The notes beneath the pieces are model-generated. The model was not told where the DNA came from, did no database searches, and saw only the letters and a program-made list of their open reading frames with translations. 37,998 nt of DNA from an uncultured Solirubrobacteraceae bacterium. Its GTDB lineage: Bacteria > Actinomycetota > Thermoleophilia > Solirubrobacterales > Solirubrobacteraceae. Location: contig CADCVR010000008.1 of assembly GCA_902806205.1 (NCBI GenBank), positions 1-37,998 of the forward strand. The letters are read 5' to 3'. Each line of letters begins with the position of its first letter. The first letter of the stretch is position 1. Positions 2,171-20,609 of the stretch are shown here, piece after piece. The position numbers and the translations under genes are program-made.

Positions 2171-2197
2171 ATCATGCTGACTACGAATTGGAGCCCC

Positions 2198-3055
2198 ATG
2201 TCCCTTGTCGTCACCGGCGCGAGCGGCCACCTCGGTCGCCGTACCGCGGAGCTGTTGCTCGACCAGGTCGAGCCGAGCACCGTCGTCCTGGTCTCCCGCC
2301 GTCCCGAGGTGCTCGCCGACCTCGCCGCGCGAGGCGCGGAAGCCCGCCGCGGGGATTTCAACGACCCGGCATCGCTCGTGAACGCGTTCGGCGGAGGCGA
2401 ACGTCTGCTGATCATCTCCACCGACGCGATCGGTCAGCGCGTCCCCCAGCACGCCAACGCGATCGACGCCGCCAAGCGCGCTGGCGTCCGCGCCGTCGCC
2501 TACACCTCGTTCCCGAACCCGTCCGCCGAGAACCCCTCGGCGGTCGCCGCCGACCACCGCGCGACCGAGGCACTGCTCACCGCGAGCGGCCTGGAGTGGA
2601 CGCTTCTGCGCAACGCGCTCTACAGCGAGTTCCGCATCCCCGAGGCCCAGGCGGCGCTCGCCTCAGGCACCTTCCACCACAACCAGGGCGAGGGCCGCAG
2701 CGCCTACGTGTCCCGCGAGGACTGCGCCGCGGTCGCAGCCGCGTGGCTCGCCGCAGGCTCCGAGCACGCGGGGCGCACCTACGACGTCACGGGTCCCGAG
2801 CTCCTCGGCGCCGACGACCTCGCCCGCACCTACGCCGCGGCCGGCGGCTCCCCCGTCATCGCGGCCACCCTCGACGACGACGCGTTCGTCGCCGGCATGC
2901 AGGGCGCCGGGCTGCCTGCGGAGGTGGCCGGGCTGCTGGCCTCCTTCGGCGCCGCGATCCGCGGCGGCCACCTCGACCAGTTCCCCAACACGGTGGAGGA
3001 GCTCACGGGCCGCCCGCCGCGGCCCGTCTCCGAAGTGCTGGCGAGCGCGCTGTAG
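2198..3055 (+). CDS. NmrA-type NAD(P)-binding quinone oxidoreductase
   Basis: A 285-residue atypical short-chain dehydrogenase. The ATG at 2198 is chosen because TTGGAG precedes it by 4-5 bases; an in-frame ATG at 2174 has no such site and falls in the operator region. The dinucleotide loop is VTGASGHLGRR near residues 4-14. The conserved acidic/basic segment GDFNDPASL and the YTSFPNPSAENPS region match the QorB/YtfG and YwnB group, which reduce quinones or sense NADPH. There is no Tyr-x3-Lys catalytic pair of classical SDRs, as usual in this group. It is the only gene in its transcript and is probably regulated by the divergent Rrf2 protein. Confidence 0.88.
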   Translation: MSLVVTGASGHLGRRTAELLLDQVEPSTVVLVSRRPEVLADLAARGAEARRGDFNDPASLVNAFGGGERLLIISTDAIGQRVPQHANAIDAAKRAGVRAVAYTSFPNPSAENPSAVAADHRATEALLTASGLEWTLLRNALYSEFRIPEAQAALASGTFHHNQGEGRSAYVSREDCAAVAAAWLAAGSEHAGRTYDVTGPELLGADDLARTYAAAGGSPVIAATLDDDAFVAGMQGAGLPAEVAGLLASFGAAIRGGHLDQFPNTVEELTGRPPRPVSEVLASAL

Positions 3056-3182
3056 GCCGGTGGAGCCGGTAGGGGCACAGGCGCGTCAGCCGCGCGGCGG
3101 TCGTAATCCCTGGCGCGCTGCGCGCCGAGGACCCGCTGTCGCTGGATCTGGGCAGGTTGTGAGCGCGGTCCCCACCAGGTTA

Positions 3183-3342
3183 GGGAGCGTCTCTCAACAA
3201 GTTGCGTGTCTGGGCACCGTCTCGCGGCGCTCGGAGCCACCCGGCCCCTTGCGAATACCACCGGTATTCGCGGCGGGGCCGCGCGGCCCCGAGCATCCAC
3301 GATCCGGCACCCAAACCCTGCAACTTGTTTTCGGACGCTCCC
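3183..3342. mobile_element. 160-bp MITE-like element
   Basis: The two ends form an imperfect inverted repeat of about 36 bp: the left end starts GGGAGCGTCTCTCAACAAGT and the right end, read inward on the other strand, starts GGGAGCGTCCGAAAACAAGT. The element is flanked on both sides by TTA (3180-3182 and 3343-3345), a plausible 3-bp target duplication of the kind made by IS5-family transposases. It has no room for a transposase. Inside it are two perfect hairpins: GCGAATACC-ACC-GGTATTCGC and the 16-bp palindrome GGGGCCGCGCGGCCCC. I see no second copy in this window. Confidence 0.72.
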
Positions 3343-3350
3343 TTAGCTCT

Positions 3351-3510
3351 CGCTGTCCAGCTCGCCCATGGGGAAGTCCGCGTACCGGCCGCCGGTTGCG
3401 GTCACGCAGGGCGCGCCGATGAGCAGCTCGTTGTGTCCCGGAGCCGTAGAAGTCCGCGGTGTCGATCAGGCTCACGCCGGCGTCGATGGCGGCGTGGATG
3501 TGGCGGCTCT
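3351..3510 (-). pseudogene. Aldo-keto reductase fragment
   Basis: On the minus strand HIHAAIDAGVSLIDTADFYG is the hallmark N-terminal segment of aldo-keto reductases, containing the catalytic Asp and Tyr (D-T-A-x-x-Y). After YGSG the frame is lost: HNELLIG and then RALRDRN appear in different frames, and nothing further of the TIM barrel is left before the MITE-like element. It begins immediately downstream of the ung stop codon. The element may have contributed to its truncation. Not expected to make a functional protein. Confidence 0.65.
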
Positions 3511-4199
3511 CAGGGCAGCCGCCAGTCCACCGGCTCGGCGCCTTGGCCGTTGAGCAGCGCGTTCGCCCTGCTGAACGGCCGGGAGCCGAAGAAGCCGCTC
3601 GAAGCCGAGAGCGGGCTCGGGTGCGCCGACTCGACGGCCGGGAGGTCGCCGAGCAGCGGCCTGAGGTTGCGCGCGTGGCGGCCCCAGAGGACCGCCACGA
3701 GCGGGCCGCCGCGGGCGGCGAGCGCGCGGATGGCCTGCTCGGTGACCGCCTCCCAGCCCTTGCCCTGGTGCGAGTTCGGCCGGCCGCGCTCGACGGTCAG
3801 CGCGCGGTTGAGCAGCAGCACGCCGCGCTCGGCCCAGGGGGAGAGGTCGCCGGTGGCCGGCGGCGGCAGCCCGAGGTCCGCGACGTACTCCTTGAAGATG
3901 TTGACCAGGCTCGGCGGCAGCGGGCGGACGTCGGGCGCGACGGAGAAGCTCAGGCCGACGGCGTGGCCGGGCGTGGGGTACGGGTCCTGGCCGACGATCA
4001 GCACGCGGATGCCGTCGAGCGGCTGGGTGAACGCGCGCAGGACATGCTCGCCGCGGGGCGCGAAGGCACGGCCCGCCGCCGTCTCGGCGCGCAGGAAGTC
4101 GCCCATGGCGGCGACGCGGTCGGCGACCGGCGCGAGCGCGCGCGCCCAGCCGGGGTCGACGACGTCCTCGAGCGGACGGACGGTCACGCGGGGGAGCAT
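3510..4199 (-). CDS. ung: Uracil-DNA glycosylase, family 1
   Basis: Removes uracil from DNA by hydrolysing the N-glycosidic bond, starting base excision repair. The ATG at 4199 gives 229 residues, the normal size; the frame is open further upstream, but those residues (Arg/Pro-rich) are not Ung-like. The water-activating loop [17 protein letters not shown] carries the catalytic Asp near residue 72, and the minor-groove/leucine loop [14 protein letters not shown] starts near residue 193. The uracil-binding motif [20 protein letters not shown] is also present. It is intact and probably monocistronic, between remnants of other genes. Confidence 0.95.
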
Positions 4200-18221: not shown

Positions 18222-18968
18222 CTACTGCGTGATGGTCAGCGGGATCCCGCCGCCGATGCGTCGGGCCATCCACGTGATGGCGGCTGGGCTCAGCCGGATG
18301 CACCCGTGGGAGACGGCGGTCCCGAGCGCGCCCGAGATGTTGCGGGTTCCGTGAAGCGCTATCTGCCCGGGGCCACCGGCGAATTCCTGCAGCACCTGTG
18401 AGCGGGCGCTCGTGGCCAGCGCGAACGGGGCGCCCCCGTCCGAGGGGGAGAGCGCGACGGCCTCTTCGATGAAGAATCGGCCTCGTGGGGTCGGCGTCGA
18501 GGACTTACCGATGACGGCGCGGAAGCGGCGCTCGGTGCGGCCGTCGCGGTAGACGGTGACGCGGCGGGTGGAGAGCTTGAGCGCGATGTGCCACTCCGTG
18601 GAAGACGATCTGGTCCGGTCGGTGGGAATCCAGCCGTGGTGCCCGTTCGGCCGCCCGGGAAGCCGGACGTGCGTCCAGGAGCGCCCGTCGCTGCCGGTCG
18701 CGGTGCCGAGCACCGGGAGGACGGTCGGAACGTTCGTCAGCGGACGCCGGGCGCTGACCGACTCGATCTGGCGCGCTCTGACGTCTGGCCGGGTTCGGGC
18801 GACGTGATCTTGCAGGAGTGACACCAGGCGCTGGCTCGCGGGCACCGCAGCCGCGCGCTCCGGAGCCCCGACGCAGACCGCGCCGACGGCGACGAGCGCC
18901 AGCGCGAGTGTTGCGACCCCACGGCCGCAGCCGGAAGGTCCGTCGAGGCTGCGTGTCGTGCGGCTCAT
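18222..18968 (-). CDS. L,D-transpeptidase (YkuD domain)
   Basis: A 248-residue exported enzyme that makes 3-3 peptidoglycan cross-links or links proteins to the wall. An N-terminal hydrophobic segment (GVATLALALVAVGAVCVGAP) ending at ERAAA acts as signal peptide or anchor. A roughly 90-residue region follows, with an SH3-like GTATGSDGRSWTHVRLPGRP and HHGWIPTDRT. The YkuD domain spans about residues 125-248: EWHIALKLSTRRVTVYRDGR, TPTPRGRFFIEE, and the active site IALHGTRN to VSHGCIRLS with catalytic His and Cys. The ATG overlaps the stop of the upstream surface protein gene by four bases, so it is coupled to that protein. Confidence 0.92.
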   Translation of the reverse strand: MSRTTRSLDGPSGCGRGVATLALALVAVGAVCVGAPERAAAVPASQRLVSLLQDHVARTRPDVRARQIESVSARRPLTNVPTVLPVLGTATGSDGRSWTHVRLPGRPNGHHGWIPTDRTRSSSTEWHIALKLSTRRVTVYRDGRTERRFRAVIGKSSTPTPRGRFFIEEAVALSPSDGGAPFALATSARSQVLQEFAGGPGQIALHGTRNISGALGTAVSHGCIRLSPAAITWMARRIGGGIPLTITQ

Positions 18969-20269
18969 CCCGCGAAGCGCGACGGGCCGCGGCGCGGGCG
19001 GAGCACTGCTGCCGCGCACGGGCGGTAGCCGAGCGTCAAGACCCGGGGGCGGGTGGCGTCCTTGAACGTGACGCGAGCGGTGACCTTGTGCCGGCCCGGG
19101 GCGGCCCGCACGTACACCTTGAACGGTGACCGTGCCCGGCTGGCGATCCGCTTGCCGTCCAGGCTGAAGACCACCTGCTTGATCCCACGCCCCCGGACCG
19201 TGGCGCGGAATCCCGCCGTGCAGCTCGCAAACGGCGCGCGCCGCATGACGGTCTTGCCCTTCCGGGCGACGGTGGAGATCGAGGTCGCCTCGCCGGCCGG
19301 AGCCGGCGAGGTGGATCCGGGGCGGCTCGACGTGATCGCGGCGACCGGAGCCGGCGACGCGGGTGCCGGGCCGGTCCCGGCGGGGGCCGTGGGTGCCGGG
19401 CCGCTCGGGCTGGTCTCAGTGGGGGGCGTGGGAGTGGGGCCGCTCGGGCTGGTCTCGGCGGGCGGCGTGGGGGCCGGGGGGACCGGAGTGGTGTCGGTGG
19501 GCGGCGTCGGCGTCGGGTTGGTCGGGGTCGTGTCGGCGGGGGGGATGGGCGACGTGGTGCCGGCGGCGCACTGCGAGTTGCTCAGGACGTTGGTATCCAG
19601 GGTGACTGCCCCGTTGCGGGCGAGTGTCCGCCCGATCACCGACGCTCCGGTGTTCACCGAGATGCTCGTGAGCGCCAGCACGTTGCCCTGGAACGCCGTG
19701 GTGGTGCCGATGGTCGCCGAGCTGCCGACCTGCCAGAAGACGTTGCACGGCGAGGCTCCGTTGATCAGCACGACCGAGCTGGCCGATGCGGTGGTCAGCG
19801 TGGAGCCGATCATGAAGACGAACTGCGCGTTGGGATCGCCCTGGGCGTCCAGGGTGACGGTTCCCGTGAGCTGCGCCGAAGAGGCATACCGGTAGGCCCC
19901 GGCCGGCAGCGCTTGTCCGCCCAGGTCGGTGCCGGTCAGGTCGCGGGTGACCGCCTGTCCGGCCGCGACGTCGTACGCGGTGGTGAGGTCGGCCTGCGCC
20001 TGCCGGGCGACGGCGTCGTTGGCGTGCGTGGCGCCGTTGACGACCGCGGGCAGCCCGAAGCCCACGAGGGCGGTTCCGGGAGCGACCCCGAGATCGCCGT
20101 TGAGCACCGACGGGCCGGTGTTGGTGACGGTGGAGCCGCCCAGGACCACGAAGGGTCCGGAGGTGGCGAGGTTGACCGGGGCGGCCTGGGCGGCGACCGG
20201 TACGGCCGCGAAGGCGAGGCTCGCGGCGAGGGCGATGCCGGAGCGCTTGAGGGAGGCAGAGCTGGACAC
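18965..20269 (-). CDS. Secreted DUF3494 (ice-binding-like) surface protein
   Basis: A 434-residue exported protein. Residues 1-29 are a signal peptide ending AQA, followed by a DUF3494 beta-helix (about 30-240): NLATSGPFVVLGGSTVTNTG, GDLGVAPGTALVGFG, DLTTAYDVAAGQ, QFVFMIGSTLTTASASSVVL, FWQVGSSATIGTTTAFQGNV. Residues about 247-335 are a Pro/Thr/Ser linker with a 13-residue repeat. The last 80-90 residues form a small Ig-like domain with two cysteines (PFASCTAGFRATVRGRGIKQ, LTLGYRPCAA). DUF3494 proteins bind ice in cold species, but most mesophile members are thought to be surface adhesins. The GTG at 20269 follows AGGA. A c-di-GMP-type riboswitch lies in the leader. Confidence 0.88.
   Translation of the reverse strand: MSSSASLKRSGIALAASLAFAAVPVAAQAAPVNLATSGPFVVLGGSTVTNTGPSVLNGDLGVAPGTALVGFGLPAVVNGATHANDAVARQAQADLTTAYDVAAGQAVTRDLTGTDLGGQALPAGAYRYASSAQLTGTVTLDAQGDPNAQFVFMIGSTLTTASASSVVLINGASPCNVFWQVGSSATIGTTTAFQGNVLALTSISVNTGASVIGRTLARNGAVTLDTNVLSNSQCAAGTTSPIPPADTTPTNPTPTPPTDTTPVPPAPTPPAETSPSGPTPTPPTETSPSGPAPTAPAGTGPAPASPAPVAAITSSRPGSTSPAPAGEATSISTVARKGKTVMRRAPFASCTAGFRATVRGRGIKQVVFSLDGKRIASRARSPFKVYVRAAPGRHKVTARVTFKDATRPRVLTLGYRPCAAAVLRPRRGPSRFAG
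19401..19478 (-). repeat. Two 39-bp tandem units in the Pro/Thr linker
   Basis: The block CCGCTCGGGCTGGTCTC recurs at 19401 and 19440, a 39-base period equal to 13 residues (ETSPSGPTPTPPT, then ETSPSGPAPTAPA). It encodes part of the linker of the DUF3494 protein; less exact units extend on both sides. It is a coding repeat, not a CRISPR. Confidence 0.7.
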
Positions 20270-20360: not shown

Positions 20361-20436
20361 GTCGGTAGCCCGGCGAACTCCGGTCGGAGTTCCGTGGCTT
20401 TGCGGACCCGCCTCACGACGAGGGTGCCTGTGTCAA
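20361..20436 (-). ncRNA. Cyclic di-GMP-I (GEMM) type riboswitch
   Basis: Read on the minus strand, the leader shows the GEMM core in order: TTGACACAGGC (5' strand; the second G of ACAGG matches the ligand-contacting G20 of the Vc2 RNA), a P1b hairpin CCTC-GTCGT-GAGG, then CCGCAAAGCCACGGA (consensus ACGCAAAGCCACGG), a P2 hairpin AACTCC-GACC-GGAGTT, and CGCCGGGCTACCGA (consensus GGGUUACCG). The class binds cyclic di-GMP, a second messenger that often controls adhesins and surface proteins. Here it precedes a secreted DUF3494 protein by about 90 bases. G20 argues for c-di-GMP rather than cGAMP specificity. The joins differ slightly from consensus, so it could be one of the described variants. 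Confidence 0.75.
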
Positions 20437-20609
20437 GGGATTTCTGCTCTGGTGTCCGTATCGCATCGGCACCTAGCCGCCGGACCTTGAGCCGGCACCG
20501 ATCGGCCAGAACGGACGGGCGTCGTTGGGCGGTTCAGCTTCGACCGACCGTCGTCAAGTGGTCAGGAGCTTTCGACCAGATGTCGTAGAGCGCGCGCGCA
20601 GGGGCCCCT

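Follow-up and report, generated by a model that had tools for sequence, protein, structure and literature searches.

The element studied here lies at positions 3183-3342 of a stretch of 37,998 nucleotides from an uncultured Solirubrobacteraceae bacterium (contig CADCVR010000008.1, forward strand), which is called the window throughout and is contig C8 of a genome of 3.38 Mb in 108 contigs. We consider it probable that this element is a miniature inverted-repeat transposable element (MITE) in which two modules are combined, namely ends of the type found in insertion sequences (IS) of the IS5 family and a conserved hairpin cargo. The cargo, a core of about 120 nt, is constrained as a single strand, which in the window is the minus strand, and this conclusion is well supported. 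The first-pass annotation had placed a 160-bp element with TTA on both sides at exactly these coordinates, and the sequence agreed; what it had missed is the hairpin of the interior, which is conserved, strand-specific, and common to elements with quite different ends. The features of the element are the following:

3183-3342, no strand assigned: MITE of family A, 160 bp, with ends GGGAGCGTC...GACGCTCCC (sequence; second copy at 98% identity, C19:61628-61789)
3180-3182, no strand assigned: target trinucleotide TTA, left (read from the sequence)
3343-3345, no strand assigned: target trinucleotide TTA, right (read from the sequence)
3183-3205, plus strand: left terminal inverted repeat (TIR), imperfect (repeat search; retained in short derivatives)
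3320-3342, minus strand: right TIR, imperfect (repeat search; retained in short derivatives)
3203-3322, minus strand: conserved hairpin core, about 120 nt (110.3 bits with the covariance model R1; covariation; strand test)
3303-3304, minus strand: conserved tandem G.A mismatch, 5' half (alignment A2, columns 19-20)
3220-3221, minus strand: conserved tandem G.A mismatch, 3' half (alignment A2, columns 104-105)

Sequence searches raised elements which had other ends and a related interior. Eighteen diverse interiors, oriented by a sequence motif, were aligned by sequence with MAFFT (alignment A2, 122 columns). The consensus core is a hairpin of 45 pairs, and 34 of these had changed on both sides with the pairing kept. 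The covariation score was 0.567 against 0.218 in shuffles, none of 500 being as high, and slid controls reached at most 0.134. The tandem G.A and several G.U pairs are conserved widely, and the tandem G.A and residues of the tip are kept across families. From the core we built the covariance model R1, on what is called here the model strand; with it the core of the window element scored 110.3 bits on the minus strand and 47.4 bits on the plus strand (3202-3321).

The constraint on one strand was measured by a strand-neutral self-alignment of the arms in 91 distinct cores whose better strand scored roughly 55 bits or higher, after exclusion of duplicates and of matches on the opposite strand. 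On the model strand, G.T was counted 647 times against 75 for A.C, and G.A 267 times against 32 for C.T; G.T exceeded A.C in 90 of the 91 cores and the remaining one was a tie. The model strand also folded better in all 91 cores, with RNA and DNA energies both (mean gain 24.5 kcal/mol), and the DNA energies of the cores were -45.2 kcal/mol for the model strand versus -34.9. Considering that mutation of double-stranded DNA should not separate the strands in this manner, the asymmetry points to selection on a folded single strand.

It was possible to follow the core well beyond the window. In its own genome R1 gave at least 66 matches at E 0.01, which are at least 60 places once the weaker opposite-strand matches are removed; scoring covered 150 of the 9104 first-look candidates, so that these are minimum numbers. 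Contig ends (C5, C9, C12, C28, C32, C40, C46, C49, C88, and C90) coincide with ten of the 60 copies, which suggests that some assembly breaks were caused by the repeat and again makes the copy number a lower bound. Across the class the core was present in 51 of 249 genomes at E 1e-4, with at most 14 candidates scored per genome, so that copy numbers are lower bounds there too. In a sample of the phylum it was found in 3 of 296 genomes, all from the family of the window, under strict filters that lose weak matches. An exact core pattern matched 40 loci in a collection of 84,980 species and 23 of them are real hairpins, from records titled Solirubrobacterales, Solirubrobacteraceae, Conexibacter, Svornostia, Actinomycetota/Actinobacteria, or Candidatus Siliceabacter. 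The remaining 17 (13 in Mesorhizobium and 4 others) were rejected as chance matches, probably coding sequence, which fold only at about -43 to -54 kcal/mol with both strands much alike. When R1 was run on 29 of the 40 loci, it recovered the 23 real hairpins and had no match in the remaining 6 loci. Rfam, searched across the whole window, gave the element no match at the gathering threshold, and a search of the element and a sister copy at E 10 gave nothing credible, the matches being far below threshold and mostly to microRNA families. A distant blastn search of a plasmid collection gave no match, neither did the exact core pattern and the exact end pattern in viral contigs, and no description of the element appeared in the results listed by searches of openly licensed PMC papers.

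The same cargo is joined to at least seven sets of ends. In the own genome we distinguished families A (GGGAGCGTC), B (GAACCTGTTTC), and D (GAAGCTGTTTC), together with C (GAGYCTGTTGA) and E (ATGATTGATTCCACG), which have CTAG before the end; the core occurs with at least six kinds of ends besides family A and also in copies without recognisable ends, and relatives add further ends. Identical 4-bp flanks were seen in 7 of 15 family-C pairs and in 12 of 24 family-E pairs. A family-C and a family-E element (L099 and L302, G000:C18:3847-4129) adjoin with one CTAG in common, a nested or serial insertion.

The targets of IS5-family elements are TNA or YTAR. One IS of a relative (L147, 883 bp) reads TTA-GAAGCTGTTTCAGAA...TGAAACGGCTTC-TTA and matches family D, with GAAGCTGTTTCAGAA common to it and to the elements L040 and L033; its transposase belongs to the IS5 family (NCBIfam NF033580, E 8e-63, and PF13340 and PF01609 too). 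Another IS in a relative (L161, 901 bp, TTA flanks) has the 19 bases GAAGGTCTTTCAAAATGAG in common with the element L196, and a 128-residue frame in it reached 109.5 bits against NF033580, just below the cut-off of 110. Family B has a partial end match to IS, in that L144 and L155 each agree with it at a single end. A search with PF01609 in four genomes gave 14 matches, and the scan for ends around them located in L144 an end of B type and in L142 a D-like site with 4 mismatches; in the own genome, a weak PF01609 match at L139 has a B-type end standing alone about 1.1 kb away. Several observations were made alongside. A genus mate (G007) carries four like IS5-type copies (L148, L154, L157, and L159), and R1 gave no match there. 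A repeat of 53-54 bp at the end of L144 is identical at several places (G012:C40, C74, and C32) and adjoins a decayed IS5-type element. Another palindromic repeat, with ends near TGCTCCGATTC, lies in L009 (1560-1680) and L032 (807-927) and has weak R1 scores (48-49 bits); the TGCTCCGATTC-type end sequence also adjoins the family-A copies at C19 and C89.

As regards family A, further genomic copies, which the first-pass annotation had proposed to look for, were present. There is a second full copy at C19:61628-61789, and C104, C33, and C89 each hold a short form which kept both ends and lost the interior, the three spanning 52, 54, and 34 bp between the flanking trinucleotides; one-sided pieces occur at C27 and C4. 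The element is therefore multi-copy with TIRs, as expected of a MITE, with two full and three short copies having both ends. A loose pattern for A gave 41 pairs, and by sequence only L001, L002, L005, L006, and L009 belong to the family; L048 (G024) is a diverged relative. The proposed IS5-type ends and TNA target fitted in that TNA stands at 9 of the 10 flanks of these five copies, the window copy being flanked TTA/TTA, and that IS5-family IS placed between TTA and bearing sister-family ends exist in relatives; the duplication of the target fared less well, as told below.

In the window, the outer arms are 29 nt long and 79% complementary with the flanks counted in (repeat search); about 36 bp had been described before. 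The inverted repeat runs on beyond these arms, and the whole element is one hairpin. Positions 3181-3344 form a single long hairpin on the plus strand (RNA -106.4 kcal/mol, z -10.9; DNA z -7.9), with none of 200 shuffled controls as good, and for 3183-3342 the minus strand gives by far the more stable fold (-130.3 vs -104.3 kcal/mol on the plus strand). Whole-element hairpins are predicted in families A, B, and C. The two perfect palindromes that had been read as internal hairpins, 3251-3271 and 3274-3291, do exist, but in the predicted fold the former makes up the tip of the long stem, into which the latter is absorbed. The open reading frames listed across 3183-3342 are mechanical and none is convincing, so the element holds no credible transposase gene, which agrees with the earlier statement of no coding capacity and with a MITE. 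The element stands between two convergent genes, both aimed at it:

2174-3055, plus strand: gene of an NmrA-like NAD(P)H-binding protein, left neighbour (PF13460, PF05368)
3510-4199, minus strand: gene of uracil-DNA glycosylase, right neighbour (PF03167; open reading frame extendable to 4289)

On the minus strand at 3346-3475 there is a short frame which we take to resemble an aldo-keto reductase motif, possibly a gene remnant. The suggestion that it reflects the insertion was not confirmed, the 93-residue frame having no Pfam match and the link being a guess.

The position of the cores with respect to genes was analysed in 141 of 159 entries, 18 being dropped as duplicates or for lying less than 300 bases from the end of a locus, with genes called by a codon-usage gene caller trained on the DNA analysed. 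The division into TIR elements and end-less copies follows a threshold of arm alignment, under which L047, L276, and L322 were counted as end-less although they appear to be old TIR elements, and L057/L210 was counted as a TIR element although it appears end-less. In 78 of 106 TIR elements a stop codon lies 10-32 nt from the core edge, where the ends lie. The 88 stops which abut them are TAG in 52 cases, TAA in 13, and TGA in 23, whereas 351 genes sampled from two relatives (G035 and G223) have 98 TAG, 11 TAA, and 242 TGA; TA-bearing stops are thus enriched (65/88 vs 109/351). This is expected if the target is TNA or CTAG and if TA is, as seems likely, rare in coding DNA. With respect to the abutting gene, 28 TIR elements are in sense only, 40 in antisense only, and 10 in both. 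The 35 end-less copies abut a stop in one orientation only in 19 cases, in the opposite orientation only in none, in both in 5, and in neither in 11; in those 19 it is the antisense strand of the abutting gene that is constrained. In G035, a single contig, the 14 copies (12 end-less by eye, 11 by threshold) all switch strand at the contig midpoint, 6 being minus below it and 8 plus above it. Among 10-kb samples of this genome, 9 of the 12 taken up to 3.01 Mb have most of their coding on the plus strand, and all 8 taken from 3.25 Mb onward have it on the minus strand; together with the weak GC skew this suggests that the terminus may lie past the copy at 2.948 Mb, in which case 13 or 14 of the 14 would fit a replichore rule. 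A replication-strand rule for all copies was rejected: it fits G035 and fails in G223, whose 5 copies do not fit two arcs, and within contigs of the own genome, where pairs of copies agree in strand 9 times and disagree 12 times. Among the end-less copies of G035 (L290-L297) the cores are similar and the outer arms differ among copies, yet stay largely complementary within each.

Taking these results together, in the reading we favour the IS5-type TIRs would be moved in trans by an IS5-family DDE transposase, which would insert at TA-containing sites, TNA or CTAG. Since such sites in a GC-rich genome are often stop codons, the insertion could preserve the stop and would presumably be tolerated. 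The second module would be the cargo, in which selection, as covariation and strand asymmetry show, holds the pairs, the G.U wobbles, and the tandem G.A of a single strand. That the folded strand acts as RNA made from source copies is, in our view, about evenly balanced, and it is suggested by the tolerance of G.U and G.A. Ranked after it, and tentative, is that the strand is single-stranded DNA in replication or mobility, to which the orientation of the end-less copies points. We regard as unlikely a bolder version, in which the core would be a mobile single-strand module of its own, of a lineage about as old as the host class, that would move end-less onto stops in a replication-linked orientation and would have repeatedly taken IS5-family ends as a second route of mobility.

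Several facts weigh against the favoured reading. The same trinucleotide stands on both sides in only 1 of the 5 family-A copies, and in 8 of 15 B-like pairs, a list that takes in two D-type copies (L030 and L033) and the variant L183. No empty site is known, and no search aimed at empty sites was made. The mobilising IS which had been supposed elsewhere in the genome did not appear: PF13340 (DUF4096) gave no match in the own genome, the two PF01609 matches there lack GGGAGCGTC ends, and none of the 14 PF01609 matches in the four genomes has family-A ends. The short family-A forms, which lack the core, indicate that the ends can exist without it. With respect to the strand test, the outer arms lean the same way although more weakly (G.T 74 vs A.C 31), the elements are related, so that the 91 cores are not independent tests nor the counts independent events, and R1 was built on the model strand while the strand of the weaker matches was set by the R1 score. 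Moreover, a role of the RNA in cis finds no support in the context, considering that TIR elements are mixed in sense and that the constrained strand of the end-less copies is antisense.

Among the alternatives, it is possible, though we doubt it, that the core is a substrate of folded single-stranded DNA in the manner of IS200/IS605, REP, or attC, a strand-specific enzyme moving end-less copies onto stops in one replication-coupled orientation and the IS5-type ends coming later. The end-less copies, whose 19 one-sided cases all abut stops of genes coded on the non-model strand, the switch of strand in G035, and the DNA energies all agree with it. It would not explain that TIR elements retain the core without a fixed orientation, the contigs of the own genome and G223 do not follow the orientation, and the origin and terminus of G035 are uncertain. 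An integron attC likewise follows a stop codon and is an imperfect palindrome that folds better on its antisense strand, and it has the conserved boxes RYYYAAC/GTTRRRY. None of these AAC/GTT boxes was seen by eye in A2 or in the end-less copies, no attC model being run, and no arrays were seen; the resemblance is only one of how the two might work.

A more ordinary explanation would be a MITE like ERIC or Correia, with a functionless hairpin that is the by-product of a palindromic ancestor and is kept by template switching between the arms. MITEs that are long palindromes are on record, one arm can serve to correct the other, and the varying but complementary arms of the end-less copies would fit such a process; however, a one-strand preference for G.T and G.A rather than A.C and C.T is not what arm correction should produce, and the tandem G.A and residues of the tip are kept across families, for which reasons we give it little probability. 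We think just as little of a host transcription terminator or stabiliser of the 3' untranslated region, acting in cis on the upstream gene. The position after stop codons and the scarcity of cores between divergent genes (4 of 91; 5 of 60 in the own genome) speak for it, but the tandem settings have no sense bias (17 sense vs 28 antisense; 13 vs 12 in the own genome) and an mRNA from the gene that abuts an end-less copy would hold the poorly folding strand. A simple deletion derivative of an IS5-family element is the least probable, even though relatives have IS5-family IS with sister-family ends, given that one core is combined with many ends and that the core was not found in the 12 IS-bearing loci (11 places) tested, whose best match (E 0.076) was chance-like.

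By comparison with known systems, the favoured two-module element resembles the IS5-family IS and their MITEs in its ends and its TNA/CTAG settings, including the sister-family ends on IS in relatives, and differs in that its interior is not IS sequence and that no IS with family-A ends was seen. ERIC and Correia/nemis are imperfect palindromes. Their likeness to the present elements is an analogy, set side by side by description and not by sequence, and here one core goes with several IS5-type end sets, under a one-strand constraint and at stop codons. In the part of PMC10969869 available to us, ERIC and Correia/nemis are described as short, intergenic, and multi-copy, with MITE features, and as being in transcripts acted on by RNases, and QMITE 2 of Coxiella burnetii as a MITE mainly in 3' untranslated regions. 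The placement at gene ends is thus shared with QMITE 2, for which that part of the source mentions no conserved covarying core. The GTAG/CGTC REP elements with their RAYT transposases are dispersed palindromic hairpins with a tagged foot according to PMC3733652, in whose text the word Actinobacteria does not appear. REP elements measure 20-40 bp; ours are dispersed palindromic hairpins as well, of about 160-190 bp and with long ends.

Elsewhere in the window there is a cyclic di-GMP (c-di-GMP)-I riboswitch (20361-20438, minus strand, 50.7 bits, above the gathering threshold), directly upstream of the gene of an ice-binding-like protein (18965-20269, PF11999). To judge by this arrangement, the protein may possibly be a c-di-GMP-controlled surface protein.

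MITEs are usually seen as empty shells of IS, and here it is the interior that is conserved and the ends that are exchangeable, with a clear structural constraint on a single strand across a bacterial class. If the folded strand is RNA, it would be a structured RNA outside Rfam that is spread through transposition, and in the case of folded DNA we may be dealing with a hairpin mobility system that is new. Insertion on TA-bearing stops would also be a simple account of how such elements remain harmless in GC-rich genomes.
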